Assembly (NCBI GenBank): GCA_024291935.2
Contig: CM044322.1
Location: 26,659,405-26,723,404, forward strand
Direction of reading: 5' to 3'
Origin: Okapia johnstoni
Lineage: Eukaryota > Chordata > Mammalia > Artiodactyla > Giraffidae
DNA: 64,000 nucleotides
Below, piece after piece: positions 1-27,482 of this stretch. Numbering within the stretch: position 1 is the first letter of the stretch; every line of letters begins with the position of its first letter. Made by a program: the position numbers and the translations under genes. The notes under the pieces were generated by a model. The model was not told where the DNA came from, made no database searches, and saw nothing but the letters and a program-made list of their open reading frames with translations.

Positions 1-225
1 TTTTTTAAGGAATCTCCACACTGTTCTCCATAGTGGCTGTACTAGTTTGCATTCCCACCAACAGTGTAAGAGGGTTCCCCTTTTTCTCCACACCCTCTCC
101 AGCATTTATTGCTTGTAGACTTTTGGATAGCAGCCATTCTGACTGGTGTGTAATGGTACCTCATTGTGGTTTTGATTTGCATTTCTCTAATAATGAGTGA
201 TGTTGAGCATCTTTTCATGTGTTTG

Positions 226-2508
226 TTAGCCATCTGTATGTCTTCTTTGGAGAAATGTCTGTTTAGTTCTTTGGCCCATTTTTTGATTGGGTCGTTTATT
301 TTTCTGGAATTCAGCTGCAGGAGTTGCTTGTATATTTTTGAGATTAATTGTTTGTCTGTTGCTTCGTTTGCTATTATTTTCTCCCCATTCTGAAGGCTGT
401 CTTTTCACCTTGCTCCTAGTTTCCTTTGTTGTGCAAAAGCTTTTAATTTTAATTAGGTCCCATTTGTTTATTTTTGCTTTTATTTCCAATATTCTGGGGG
501 GTGGGTCATGGAGGATCCTGCTGTGATTTATGTCGGAGAGTGTTTTGCCTATGTTTTCCTCTAGGAGTTTTATAGTTTCTGGTCTTACATTTAGATCTTT
601 AATCCATTTTGAGTTTATTTTTGTGTATGGTGTTAGGAAGTGTTCTAGTTTCATTCTTTTACAAGTGGTTGACCAGTTTTCCCAGCACCACTTGTTAAAG
701 AGATTGTCTTTTCTCCATTGTATACTCTTGCCTCCTTTGTCGAAGATAAGGTGCCCATAGGTGCGTGGGTTTATCTCTGGGCTTTCTATTTTGTTCCATT
801 GATCTATATTTCTATCCTTGTGCCAGTACCACACTGTCTTGATGACTGTGGCTTTGTAGTAGAGCTTGAGGTCAGGCAGGTTGATTCCTCCAGTTCCATT
901 CTTCTTTCTCAAGATTGCTTTGGCTATTCGAGGTTTCTTATACTTCCATACAAATTGTGAAATGATTTGTTCTAGTTCTGTGAAAAATATCATTGGTAGC
1001 TTGATAGGGATTGCATTGAATCTATAGATTGCTTTGGGTAGTATACTCATTTTCACTATATTAATTCTTCCAATCCATGAACACGGTATATTTCTCCATC
1101 TGTTTGTGTCCTCTTTGATTTCTTTCATCAGTGTTTTATAGTTTTCTATATATAAGTCTTTTGTTTCTTTAGGTAGAAATATTCCTAAGTATTTTATTCT
1201 TTTTGTTGCAGTGGTGAATGGTATTGTTTCCTTAATTTCTCTTTCTGTTTTCTCATTATTGGTGTATAGGAATGCAAGGGATTTCTGTGTGTTAATTTTG
1301 TATCCTGCAACTTTGCTATATTCATTGATTAGCTCTAGTAGTTTTCTGGTAGCATCTTTAGGGTTTTCTATGTAGAGGATCATGTCATCTGCAAACAGTG
1401 AGAGTTTTACTTCTTCTTTTCCTATCTGTATTCCTTTTATTTCTTTTTCCGCTCTGATTGCTGTGGCCAAAACTTCCAAAACTATGTTGAATAGTAGTAG
1501 TGAAAGTGGGCATCCTTGCCTCGTTCCTGACTTTAGGGGAAATGCTTTCAGTTTTTCACCATTGAGGATAATGTTTGCTGTGGGTTTGTCATATATAGCT
1601 TTTATTATGTTGAGGTATGTTCCTTCTATTCCTGCTTTCTGGAGAGTTTTTATCATAAACGGATGTTGAATTTTGTCAAAGGCTTTTTCTGCATCTATTG
1701 AGATAATCATATTGTTCTTATCTTTCAATTTGTTAATGTGGTGAATTACATTGATTGATTTGCGGATGTTAAAGAAACCTTGCATTCCTGGGATAAATCC
1801 CACTTGGTCATGATGTATGATCTTTTTAATATGATGTTGGATTCTATTTGCTAGAATTTTATTAAGGATTTTTGCATCTATGTTCATCAGTGATATTGGC
1901 CTGTAGTTTTCTTTTTTTGTGACATCTTTGTCTGGTTTTGGAATTAGGGTGATGGTGGCCTCATAGAATGAGTTTGGAAGTTTACCATCTTCTGCAATTC
2001 TCTGGAAGAGTTTGAGTAGGATAGGTGTTAGCTCTTCTCTAAATTTTTGGTAGAATTCCGCTGTGAAGCCGTCTGGTCCTGGGCTTTTGTTTGCTGGAAG
2101 ATTTCTGATTACAGTTTCGATTTCCGTGCTTGTGATGGGTCTGTTAAGATCTTCTATTTCTTCCTGGTTCAATTTTGGAAAGTTATACTTTTCTAAGAAT
2201 TTGTCCATTTCTTCCAAGTTGTCCATTTTATTGGCATATAGCTGTTGGTAGTAGTCTCTTATGATCCTTTGTATTTCTGTGTAGTCTGTTGTGATCTCTC
2301 CATTTTCATTTCTAATTTTGTTGATCTGATTCTTCTCCCTTTGTTTCTTGATGAGTCTGGCTAATGGCTTGTCAATTTTGTTTATCTTCTCGAAAAACCA
2401 GCTTTTAGTTTTGTTGATTTTTGCTATGGTCTCTTTTGTTTCTTTTGCATTTATTTCTGCCCTAATTTTTAAGATTTCTTTCCTTCTACTAACCCTGGGG
2501 TTCTTCAT
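226..2508 (-). pseudogene. L1 ORF2 reverse-transcriptase part, copy A, inactivated
   Basis: The open stretch of 760 codons encodes the LINE-1 ORF2p reverse transcriptase and part of the C-terminal region. Seen: IDAEKAFDKI at about residue 271, the block around RQGCPLS at about 330-336, and the catalytic FADDM at residues 372-376 (codons near 1381-1395). L1 ORF2p nicks DNA and reverse-transcribes its own RNA at the target. This copy is defective: the frame is lost between this part and the endonuclease part (2509-2545), and two in-frame stop codons, at 224-226 and about 30 nt further on, replace the C-terminal residues. It lies antisense in an FHAD1 intron. Confidence 0.9.
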
Positions 2509-2545
2509 TTCTTCCTTCTCTAGTTGCTTTAGGTGTAGAGTTAGT

Positions 2546-3490
2546 TTATTTATTTGAGTTTTTTTCTTGTTTCTTGAGGTACGCCTGTATTGCTATGAAC
2601 CTTCCCCTTAGCATTGCTTTTACAGTGTCCCATAGGTTTTGGGTTGTTGTGTTTTCATTTTCATTCATTTCTATGCATATTTTGATTTCTTTTTTGATTT
2701 CTTCTGTGATTTGTTGGTTATTCAGAAGTGTGTTGTTTAGCCTCCATATGTTGGAATTTTTAATAGTTTTTTTCCTGTAATTGAGGTCTAATCTTACTGC
2801 ATTGTGGTCAGAGAAGATGGCTGGGATGATTTCAATTTTTTGGAATTTACCAAGGCTAGATTTATGGCCCAGGATGTGATCTATCCTGGAGAAAGTTCCG
2901 TGTGCACTTGAGAAAAAGGTGAAATTGCTTGTTTTGGGGTGGAAAGTCCTGAAAATATCGATTAAATCTAATTTGTCTATAGTATCATTTAAAGTTTGTG
3001 TTTCCTTGTTAATTTTCTGTTTAGTTGATCTATCCATATGTGTGAGTGGAGTATTAAAGTCTCCCACTATTATTGTGTTATTGTTAATTTCCCCTTTCAT
3101 ACTTGTTAGTATTTGCCTTATATATTGTGGTGCTCCTATGTTGGGTGCATATATATTTATAATTGTTACATTTTCTTCTTGGATTGACCCTTTGATCATT
3201 ATGTAGTGTCCTTCTTTGTCCCTTTTCACAGCCTTTATTTTAAAGTCTATTTTATCTGAAATGAGTATTGCGACTCCTGCTTTCTTTTGGTCTCCATTTG
3301 CATGAAATATATTTTTCCATCCCTTCACTTTCAGTCTGTATGTGTCCCTAGTTTTGAGGTGGGTCTCTTGTAGACAGCATATGTAGGGGTCTTGTTTTTG
3401 TATCCACTCAGCCACTCTTTGTCTTTTGGTTGGGGCATTCAACCCATTTACATTTAAGGTAATTATTGATAAGTATGGTCCCGTTGCCAT
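2546..3490 (-). pseudogene. L1 ORF2 endonuclease part, copy A
   Basis: The 314 codons encode the apurinic-like endonuclease of LINE-1 ORF2p. Visible motifs are LNVNGL (about 12), CLQETH (39-44), GDFNTPL (143-149), SRIDHIL (201-207) and SDHNAV (227-232), which cover the expected catalytic Asn, Glu, Asp and His residues. The start MATGPYL is close to the usual ORF2 start. A frameshift in the T-rich stretch around 2557-2573 separates it from the RT part. Confidence 0.88.
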
Positions 3491-3900
3491 TTACTTTGTA
3501 GTTTTAAGTTCGTGTTTAAACATCCTGTAGCTGGCAAGGAGCAAAGATGCCAGGCAGCGTTTTCTGCCCTGAGGCAACTTCATGGCCCACCAAATAAACT
3601 ATCTCAGTTCTTTGTGGATTCCACGGGACAGCTGGAGTGCTTCTGCTTTGTGCTGTGCCTGCCACTGACCCCCAGGGAGCGCCTCCTCCAGCCAGGTCCG
3701 CACACTGTCTGCAATGGGACTTCTCAGCAGTAACGACCACATCACGACCCCAAATAAGAACACACAGAGTTCAGTGGTGGTACGGAGAGAATGAAGCTTC
3801 TCCTAGGCAAGGCTCACAGGCATCACATGATGAGAACCATGCTCTGTTTTGTTTCAAAAAAAAAAATCAGTTTCATTTCCCAGTTATAAAAGGAGCACCT

Positions 3901-26278: not shown

Positions 26279-26715
26279 GTGAGTACTGGATGGGACTCCT
26301 GCTTCTGGTCAAGCTGTCAGAATCTGACAAGAGTTGAGTCTGCAGTCCTTGCTGCTGGTTGAGATTTTCAGTCCCTTTAGTAAGACAGGCTGGTGTCATG
26401 GAAAGATCTGGTTAGATCTAAGTTCAAATCCTAAACTCAACACTCTCCAGGTATGTAGCCCCAGGTAGGTCACATCCCCTCCTGTGCCTCAGCCCACCAG
26501 CTTGTGAGATAAGGAGGCACATGAATGCCAGCTAATGCTATACTTAGCTATTTTCCCCAAAGACCTGCCTGAGGCAAGCCCATTTTGGGGTTTCAAAACA
26601 GTGGAAACTACTTGGTGGAGTGGAGCCCCAGAGAGGGTTAAAAGTCAAGAGGTTAGACTAAATGACCTTGAAGATCCTTCCCAACCCAAAGGTCCATACC
26701 TGGAGCCTCAAAGAA

Positions 26716-26855
26716 GTGAAGTGATATCACTCAGTTGTGTCCAACTCTGTGTGACCCCATGGAAATGCAGCCCACCAGGCTCCTCTGTCCATGGAATTCT
26801 CCAAGCAAGAATACTGGAGTGGGTAGCCATTCTCTTCTCCAGGAGATCTTCCGAA
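26716..26855 (-). mobile_element. Truncated Bov-tA SINE, reverse (copy B)
   Basis: Ends at 'gatcttccgaaccc', directly before the open stretch described at 26843-27289. Confidence 0.75.
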
Positions 26856-27289
26856 CCCTCAAAGAGCTGACAATTTCCAGAGAAACAAAACCCATGGATG
26901 GGAAAGATCCTGAAAGATACCGCCAAGCATCATACAAAACAGAAGGCAGTAACGTGATACAGAGAAAGGATTCAGAAAGTTTCTCAAAGAAAGCAAGCCA
27001 CCAGCCTGAGTCCTGCCCCAAATACCAATTACCAAAGTCTAATGTCACACAGGTTTTACCCCAAGAAGGCAATGATACTCAGACTCTCAATCTCCATGTT
27101 CTGAAAAGTTTGTCTCCTCCTGTAAAGTTTGTGTCTCCTCCTAAACTCTGTAAAGAAAACAGTAGCCATGACCTGGAGAAGAATCGGCATCAAGTTGTTC
27201 TCTGGTTCACTTCCTTAACAATGGACACACTCGACGTAGAGTCTCATCCTCAAGTTGAAAGAGTCATGGCCAAGGAGATTAGATACTAG
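26843..27289 (+). other. Unexplained open reading stretch with stop and downstream AATAAA
   Basis: After a SINE-derived acceptor-like 'cttctccag', the frame is open for 148 codons to TAG at 27287-27289. An AATAAA follows at 27398-27403. The product is rich in S, K, E and P (motifs EIFRTLKELTISRETK, IQRKDSESFSKKAS, LHVLKSLSPPVKFVSPPK) and does not resemble L1, BovB or the FHAD1 coiled coil. The frame does not fit the phase of exon c (ends phase 2). In copy A (11163-11612) several indels break it. It could be an alternative last exon, a retrocopy remnant or chance. I do not recognise a function. Confidence 0.35.
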
Positions 27290-27482
27290 ACATACAGACA
27301 GACATGTATGTGTATGTGTGTGATCCATTCCAGTGATCACCAATCTTTTTTATTTCAATTTTCACATGCAGCCTGCAAGTATTTTGCTTTATTCCATAAT
27401 AAACACACACACTGCCTTCAAAGGTCTATATAAGAGGAGGCTGTCCTTCAAAAGACTGTGAATACAAATGAAGTGACACTAA

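Follow-up and report, generated by a model that had tools for sequence, protein, structure and literature searches.

Tandem segmental duplications can arise by non-allelic homologous recombination between L1 elements. Apparent duplications can also be left by assembly. In the terms of PMC9516828, false duplications are classed by read depth and k-mers into heterotype and homotype (error-driven) cases. Truly overlapping contigs may also be left side by side, a situation described for heterozygosity with the copies on separate contigs (Kelley and Salzberg 2010, PMC2864568). In gap filling by PBJelly, flanks are extended and negative gaps are encountered (PMC3504050). From sequence comparison, the apparent duplication in FHAD1 of Okapia johnstoni is very likely another artefact of assembly, a chimeric error-rich patch of ~15 kb placed between two clean parts.

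Results

The window, i.e., the whole stretch analyzed, comprises 64,000 nucleotides of contig CM044322.1 (GCA_024291935.2, positions 26,659,405 to 26,723,404). A gap of 117 N lies 1.1 kb beyond it, showing that the record is scaffolded. Alignment reveals a direct repeat of 1-11715 (copy A) and 15762-27392 (copy B) with a spacing of ~15.7 kb. Positions 2453-11715 and 18005-27392 are 98.17% identical over 9405 columns, with 13 mismatches and 77 gap openings, and 1-2237 and 15762-18006 are 87.8% identical. The original prediction described a 15.6-15.7 kb direct duplication. The repeat does exist, but this figure is its spacing; the near-identical part is ~9.7 kb long (1988-11715). The leftmost 2 kb (1-1987 versus 15762-17759) are only ~88% alike, and copy B is there a further run of a stretch derived from another contig, C7. 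Other parts of that description hold: the substitutions are few, and all seven SINE-like intervals are paired, in agreement with the claim that every SINE is common to both copies. The SINE and L1 types of the window are presumably those of a ruminant.

Three FHAD1 exons, all on the plus strand, were predicted in each copy and are found in both. The first (6026-6199 in copy A, 21659-21832 in copy B) and the second (8067-8291, with approximate ends, and 23730-23954) are identical in the two copies. The third is in frame in copy B (26193-26279); in copy A (10503-10591) it was placed by alignment to copy B and carries a 2-bp insertion near 10576 that shifts its frame. Taken alone, the tblastn match of the copy B exon with P0068 is weak (E 0.18, 59% over 29 residues); the exon stands in the expected order and is followed by GTGAGT. 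Further FHAD1 exons were identified by homology at 28934-29071, 30785-30946, and 32142-32276, and open coiled-coil frames occur at 39626-39846 and 40407-40572. A third exon guessed near 7318 was dropped, as there is no coding-looking frame there. For the exon product, the only Pfam hit was PF11090, which at 13.7 bits fell short of the cut-off of 25. A literature search on FHAD1 copy number in cattle and on its duplication, covering titles and abstract openings, returned no report of an FHAD1 duplication.

Differences between the copies have a strict polarity that switches within the repeat, a feature absent from the original prediction. In the alignment of the two copies, the 60 indels at 1988-9474 include 57 that leave copy B the longer one, whereas at 10209-11715 copy A is the longer one in 11 of 12; the excess bases change sides, from B to A, between 9474 and 10209-10279. 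As had been noted, most of these differences are homopolymer-length indels (44 of the 57 with B longer, 8 of the 11 with A longer). Runs of at least nine A or T reach 1.08 per kb in 17760-25166, versus 0.21 in 1-9474 and the close value of 0.19 in 27393-64000. Polarization of 23 difference events in 1988-3526 by an outgroup, the L1 on C7, gave 20 events in which C7 agrees with copy A, one in which it agrees with copy B, and two in which it agrees with neither. The L1 ORF2 frames of copy A comprise 314 and 788 residues; the longest piece listed for copy B (17.76-19.4 kb) has 111. Both the reading frames and the outgroup L1 mark the extra bases as errors. Against an artefact, copy B is missing pieces of L1, 217 bp and 8 bp long, that copy A and C7 both possess. 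The isolated substitutions of the near-identical part (5 transitions, 8 transversions) are few and not transition-rich, which suggests that they are unlike SNPs, though their number is small. Judged by polarity, outgroup, frame, and spectrum, the copy differences are sequencing errors, although not all of them are: copy B has 8 bp within a SINE (9042/24725) that copy A lacks and that resemble a SINE on C7, and read errors in copy B therefore do not account for every difference.

These data divide the window into clean and noisy parts. The sequence at 1-10208, a putative left contig, contains the native L1, the first two repeated FHAD1 exons, and SINEs, and appears clean by the outgroup, the ORF2 frames, and homopolymer density. 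A noisy rightward extension of copy A (10209-11716) consists of C22 sequence, that of the FHAD1 locus, with extra bases, whereas a noisy leftward extension of copy B (17760-25166) is C22 sequence with homopolymer expansions. The sequence at 25167-64000, a putative right contig, holds more in-frame FHAD1 exons and is taken as clean, its quality beyond 27392 being judged by exon frames and homopolymer density only. The extra sequence is thus one error-rich block of low accuracy (~10.2-25.15 kb), bounded on both sides by cleaner sequence, as in an incorrect gap fill. Polarity switches inside a 734-bp zone identical in both copies (9475-10208, equal to 25167-25900), which includes one SINE and the greater part of another. 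No other difference-free stretch of 1988-11715 is as long, the next measuring 665 bp (6653-7317). A maximum as long as 734 bp was reached in 684 of 20,000 random placements, a fairer measure than a post hoc Poisson probability (P = 2.4e-4), on which we do not rely. The zone weakly suggests a possible true overlap of two clean contigs.

The segment following copy A (11717-15040) reproduces, with many errors, AT-rich, single-copy DNA of C7, running from C7 101739413 down to ~101736170 on the C7 minus strand. The alignment with C7 contains 281 substituted, 128 inserted, and 42 deleted columns, and the isolated changes comprise 3 transitions and 30 transversions. Both ratios are error-like. A simple tandem duplication with a period of 15,677 bp was rejected: the sequence from 11717 onward should then recur immediately before copy A, but a search of the 20 kb preceding that copy did not find it. 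The copies of a real tandem segmental duplication stand head to tail without foreign sequence, whereas here C7 sequence lies between them. At the left join (11716/11717), ~5 bp of sequence are shared without any long homology, and BLAST of C7 around 101739413 against 26801-28400 yielded no convincing common sequence. The C7 donor site itself carries a similar one-sided repeat, with extra length in the second copy at 37 of 39 indels up to 101742726.

The origin of this segment bears on the earlier interpretation of the repeat as a false haplotypic duplication, in which the two alleles of a heterozygous stretch were retained one after the other. That the duplication is false is strongly supported, but its haplotypic nature is very improbable. 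The identity of ~98% and the near-tandem placement do match published cases, with a median of 98.1% (PMC2864568), and the 8-bp difference in the SINE could be allelic, as could a CpG-type C/T at 7318. However, two haplotypes of one locus would have common flanks, and the flank at 11717-15040 is C7 sequence rather than an allele of the upstream flank. The change of error polarity inside the copies and the isolated substitutions (5 transitions to 8 transversions) also argue against two alleles. The polarity switch is easier to reconcile with a single noisy patch flanked by clean contigs than with a pair of allelic ones.

The second junction lies within an L1. Copy A begins with L1_A (1-3526, minus strand), which we take to be a young, 5'-truncated L1; it runs ~708 bp further upstream of the window, is located beside FHAD1, and is 98.6-99.1% identical to an L1 on C7. 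The foreign segment is followed by error-rich L1 sequence (15041-17617, minus strand) collinear with the C7 L1. At 36 sites distinguishing L1_A from the C7 L1, this sequence is C7-type at 25, L1_A-type at 5, and neither at 6; given the 25 C7-type sites, a plain allelic L1 difference at 1-1987 is not favored. Diagnostic sites place the switch from C7-type to C22-type inside the shared L1, at 17617-17964. To the right of it, 9 of 12 distinguishing sites are C22-type, two are C7-type (18284 and 18327), and one is neither. Site 18327 falls in a T run. The isolated changes of the L1 part relative to C7 (35 transitions, 31 transversions) are not purely error-like and, because of this ratio, real L1 divergence is mixed into it. 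Some bases may come from other L1 copies, and C7 may not be its sole source. The pooled spectrum of both parts (38 transitions, 61 transversions) masked this split and was set aside.

A switch in register within two near-identical L1s is what non-allelic homologous recombination would produce, and ~5 bp of microhomology at the left join could accompany a real structural variant. An L1-mediated rearrangement would then have brought ~6 kb of C7 into FHAD1 together with a second three-exon copy, only polishing having failed. We regard this as extremely improbable: the changes in the C7 segment are error-like, the homopolymer expansions are confined to the block among the parts compared, and the boundary between clean and noisy sequence lies inside the repeat instead of at the breakpoints. 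The similar one-sided duplication at the C7 donor would demand a second coincidence, and the third exon of copy A would be frameshifted. A real, very recent interchromosomal templated insertion through young-L1 recombination, duplicating three FHAD1 coiled-coil exons and left unpolished, is likewise scarcely credible.

Discussion

Most likely, the duplication is not a real biological feature, and the real locus very probably holds one copy. In the proposed scenario of a chimeric patch, clean sequence would extend from the start of the window to ~10.2 kb and resume at ~25.15 kb, the two clean contigs abutting, or sharing as much as ~0.8 kb, in the genome. The patch would consist of three parts: an extension of the left contig to the right (10.2-11.7 kb), ~6 kb starting as C7 DNA and running into the L1, and an extension of the right contig to the left (17.8-25.15 kb). 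A point against this scenario is that the patch is not uniform, with noise of ~1% in the C22 parts versus ~10% in the C7 part; the error rate falls at ~17760. The noisy sequence is probably near-raw and poorly corrected, presumably from long reads; similar identities appear in simulated-read benchmarks of gap closers, 88.6-95.2% for PBJelly and ~88% for LR_gapcloser (PMC8848313). The right join likely results from a false overlap, because the junction between foreign and FHAD1 sequence sits in a young L1 near-identical at C7 and C22. The left join may derive from a chimeric read.

The patch was probably made by a gap filler or an equivalent flank-extension step. Its birth in the primary long-read assembly, with a chimeric read or a false overlap at fault, would fall under the same explanation as a variant, its odds being included there, and seems rather unlikely. 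A chimeric read would account for the left join without long shared sequence, and the sequence record names no program or read type; however, the clean flanks and the quality change at both patch ends are better explained by insertion between finished contigs.

Left uncorrected, the artefact adds to FHAD1 three extra exons, one of them frameshifted, and also creates a segmental duplication and a C7/C22 junction that are both false. Any of these could be miscalled as gene gain, copy number variation, or translocation in Okapia johnstoni. Even where only the assembly is at hand and no reads, the indel polarity switch, outgroup polarization, and donor search can tell a haplotypic duplication apart from an insert that is noisy and chimeric.

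Among the described systems, the case is closer to homotype false duplication with incorrect gap filling than to the heterotype, as these are characterized in PMC9516828. Common to both are near-identical copies on one scaffold and error-dominated differences, and homotype copies are sometimes joined by unsupported sequence. The differences are that the present case was judged from the assembly alone, rather than by read depth and k-mers, and that it also includes a foreign chromosomal segment. Compared with recombination between L1s, one breakpoint is similarly in register within two near-identical L1s, but the partners belong to different contigs, homology is missing from one join, and the error content marks the block as unpolished. 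The likeness to duplicated overlapping contigs (PMC2864568) lies in contigs that truly overlap, an overlap only suggested here; unlike in those cases, error-rich sequence links the copies. Finally, as in the overfilled or negative gaps of PBJelly (PMC3504050), flank-extending long reads would have added sequence where contigs truly overlap, but PBJelly flags overfilled gaps, whereas this block was closed into one sequence.

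Results

When the window was compared with itself, two collinear matches in direct orientation emerged: 2453-11715 aligns to 18005-27392 (98.17% identity, 13 mismatches, 77 gap openings comprising 159 gap bases), and 1-2237 to 15762-18006 (87.8%). The direct duplication of the original prediction is thus genuinely present in the sequence. The predicted size of 15.6-15.7 kb holds as the spacing of the left copy A (ending at 11715) and the right copy B (ending at 27392), but not as a length, the near-identical stretch being about 9.7 kb (1988/17760 to 11715/27392). A more sensitive self-comparison found seven SINE-like intervals per copy, and all 7/7 are paired, as had been proposed. 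Elsewhere, the window contains two short tandem repeats with 34-bp units, 50776-50847 (2.1 copies, 100% matches) and 33393-33460 (2.0 copies, 94%), and a repeat element at 62815-63414 and 27757-28076 in opposite orientations.

The three FHAD1 exons expected in both copies were recovered. A 133-residue peptide joined from exon-like frames 6026-6199 and ~8067-8291 matched 73 proteins among 96 candidates, one being the Talpa occidentalis "forkhead-associated domain-containing protein 1-like, partial" (79%, query coverage 84%). Using three of the matched proteins as tblastn queries, we located further exons at 28934-29071, 30785-30946, and 32142-32276, and the third repeated exon at 26193-26279 in copy B; this last match, although weak alone (E 0.18), fits the exon order and has a GTGAGT donor at its end. 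The first and second repeated exons do not differ between the copies; copy B keeps the frame of the third, which in copy A is shifted by a 2-bp insertion and runs into a stop.

Indels between the copies are strongly one-sided. Along A 1988-9474, copy B is longer in 57/60 events, 44/57 of them of homopolymer type; along A 10209-11715, the polarity is reversed, copy A being longer in 11/12. Three observations identify the longer copy as the wrong one: the broken third exon in A; the L1 ORF2 frames, with 314 and 788 residues in A (a few breaks) versus fragments in B; and comparison with an outgroup L1 from another contig, CM044322.1 being C22 and the other C7, this outgroup L1 being A-like in 20 of 23 events along A 1988-3526, B-like in one, and neither in two. 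Together with the polarity switch, they point to a single continuous error-rich block at about 10.2-25.15 kb, flanked by cleaner sequence. The density of A/T runs of nine or more is 1.08 per kb in the noisy part of B, 0.21 in 1-9474, and 0.19 in 27393-64000. Left of A 1988, where B is C7-like, indels lack polarity (24 A-longer vs. 22 B-longer).

The longest stretch without A/B differences (734 bp, between 9474 and 10209) only suggests an overlap of clean contigs, since the next longest (665 bp) lies in the noisy part and a maximum this long arose in 684/20000 random placements. An 8-bp stretch within a SINE is present in B and missing from A (9042 vs. 24725); B is therefore probably not wrong here, and the difference would stem from a real allele or else from an error in otherwise clean copy A. 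The L1 in B lacks 8 and 217 bp shared by A and C7.

The middle segment was searched against the genome (2.376 Gb, 1604 contigs). Its parts 11716-13290 and 13440-15050 match C7:101737884-101739413 (93%) and C7:101736166-101737725 (89%), respectively; the other listed matches besides the window itself are a second place on C7 (83%, first 280 bp) and short ones of ~40-130 bases. A search of the 20 kb preceding the window did not find the segment. Over its full length, 11717-18006 is collinear with C7:101739413-101733223 (90%, 275 mismatches, 250 gap openings). Relative to C7, the foreign segment proper (11717-15040) shows three isolated transitions against 30 transversions, with 128 bases inserted and 42 deleted; these differences are errors and not divergence. 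The adjoining L1 part (15041-17759) has 35 isolated transitions, 31 transversions, 56 inserted and 38 deleted bases, with no clear trend along the L1. Its transition-rich component sets it apart from the neighbouring unique segment. Here errors are mixed with real L1 divergence, so that reads from other L1 copies may have entered. The C22 parts have an error rate of ~1%, the C7 part one of ~10%.

A young L1 occurs on both contigs (99.1% identical over 1-3526). Of 36 distinguishing sites as far as B 17617, copy B has the C7 type at 25, the C22 type at five, and neither at six; beyond it, nine of 12 sites are C22-type, two C7-type (18284 and 18327), and one neither. These counts indicate that within the L1, and in register, the C7-like sequence of the block gives way to C22 sequence. 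At the left join (11716/11717), we found no long shared sequence, with ~5 bp (TTTAT) in common.

At the donor locus, C7:101739155-101742726 recurs ~15 kb away at 101754104-101757744 (97.8%, 8 mismatches, 41 gap openings). Its second copy is longer in 37/39 indels, and in 13/18 in a noisier stretch beyond; this repeat is probably another noisy patch. The repeat element at 62815-63414 and 27757-28076 also occurs twice in the C7 stretch, the identities among these occurrences being ~85% and 87-88%.

Discussion

The one-sided indels, reading frames, outgroup L1, and C7-derived middle make it very probable that the duplication is false, as predicted, and an artefact of a noisy chimeric patch. The haplotypic nature originally proposed is very unlikely in view of these sequence comparisons. 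Several observations count against a patch: the 8 bp of SINE missing from A and the 8 and 217 bp of L1 missing from B, the uneven error rate, the not purely error-like L1 part, and the two C7-type sites past the switch. None of them favours a haplotypic or real duplication over a patch. Our confidence is slightly tempered by the weaker evidence of the identical zone and the less purely C7-like L1 part. As an assembly error, the finding is of low biological interest, and it may serve as an example of indel polarity and a donor search exposing a chimeric insert.

The simplest account is that two clean contigs meeting or overlapping near the SINE pair were kept apart, long reads would have extended each flank beyond the other, and foreign reads would have bridged the extended flanks via the L1. 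We infer a gap-filling step as the origin of the patch. A 117-N gap 1.1 kb past the window end (C22:26724544-26724660) indicates that the record is scaffolded and still contains gaps. Similar situations appear in passages of published work: flank extension and overfilled negative gaps are described for PBJelly (PMC3504050), in a simulated-read benchmark, fills averaged 88.6-95.2% identity with PBJelly and ~88% with LR_gapcloser (PMC8848313), overlapping contigs have been left in place (PMC2864568), and false duplications are sometimes joined via incorrect gap filling (PMC9516828).
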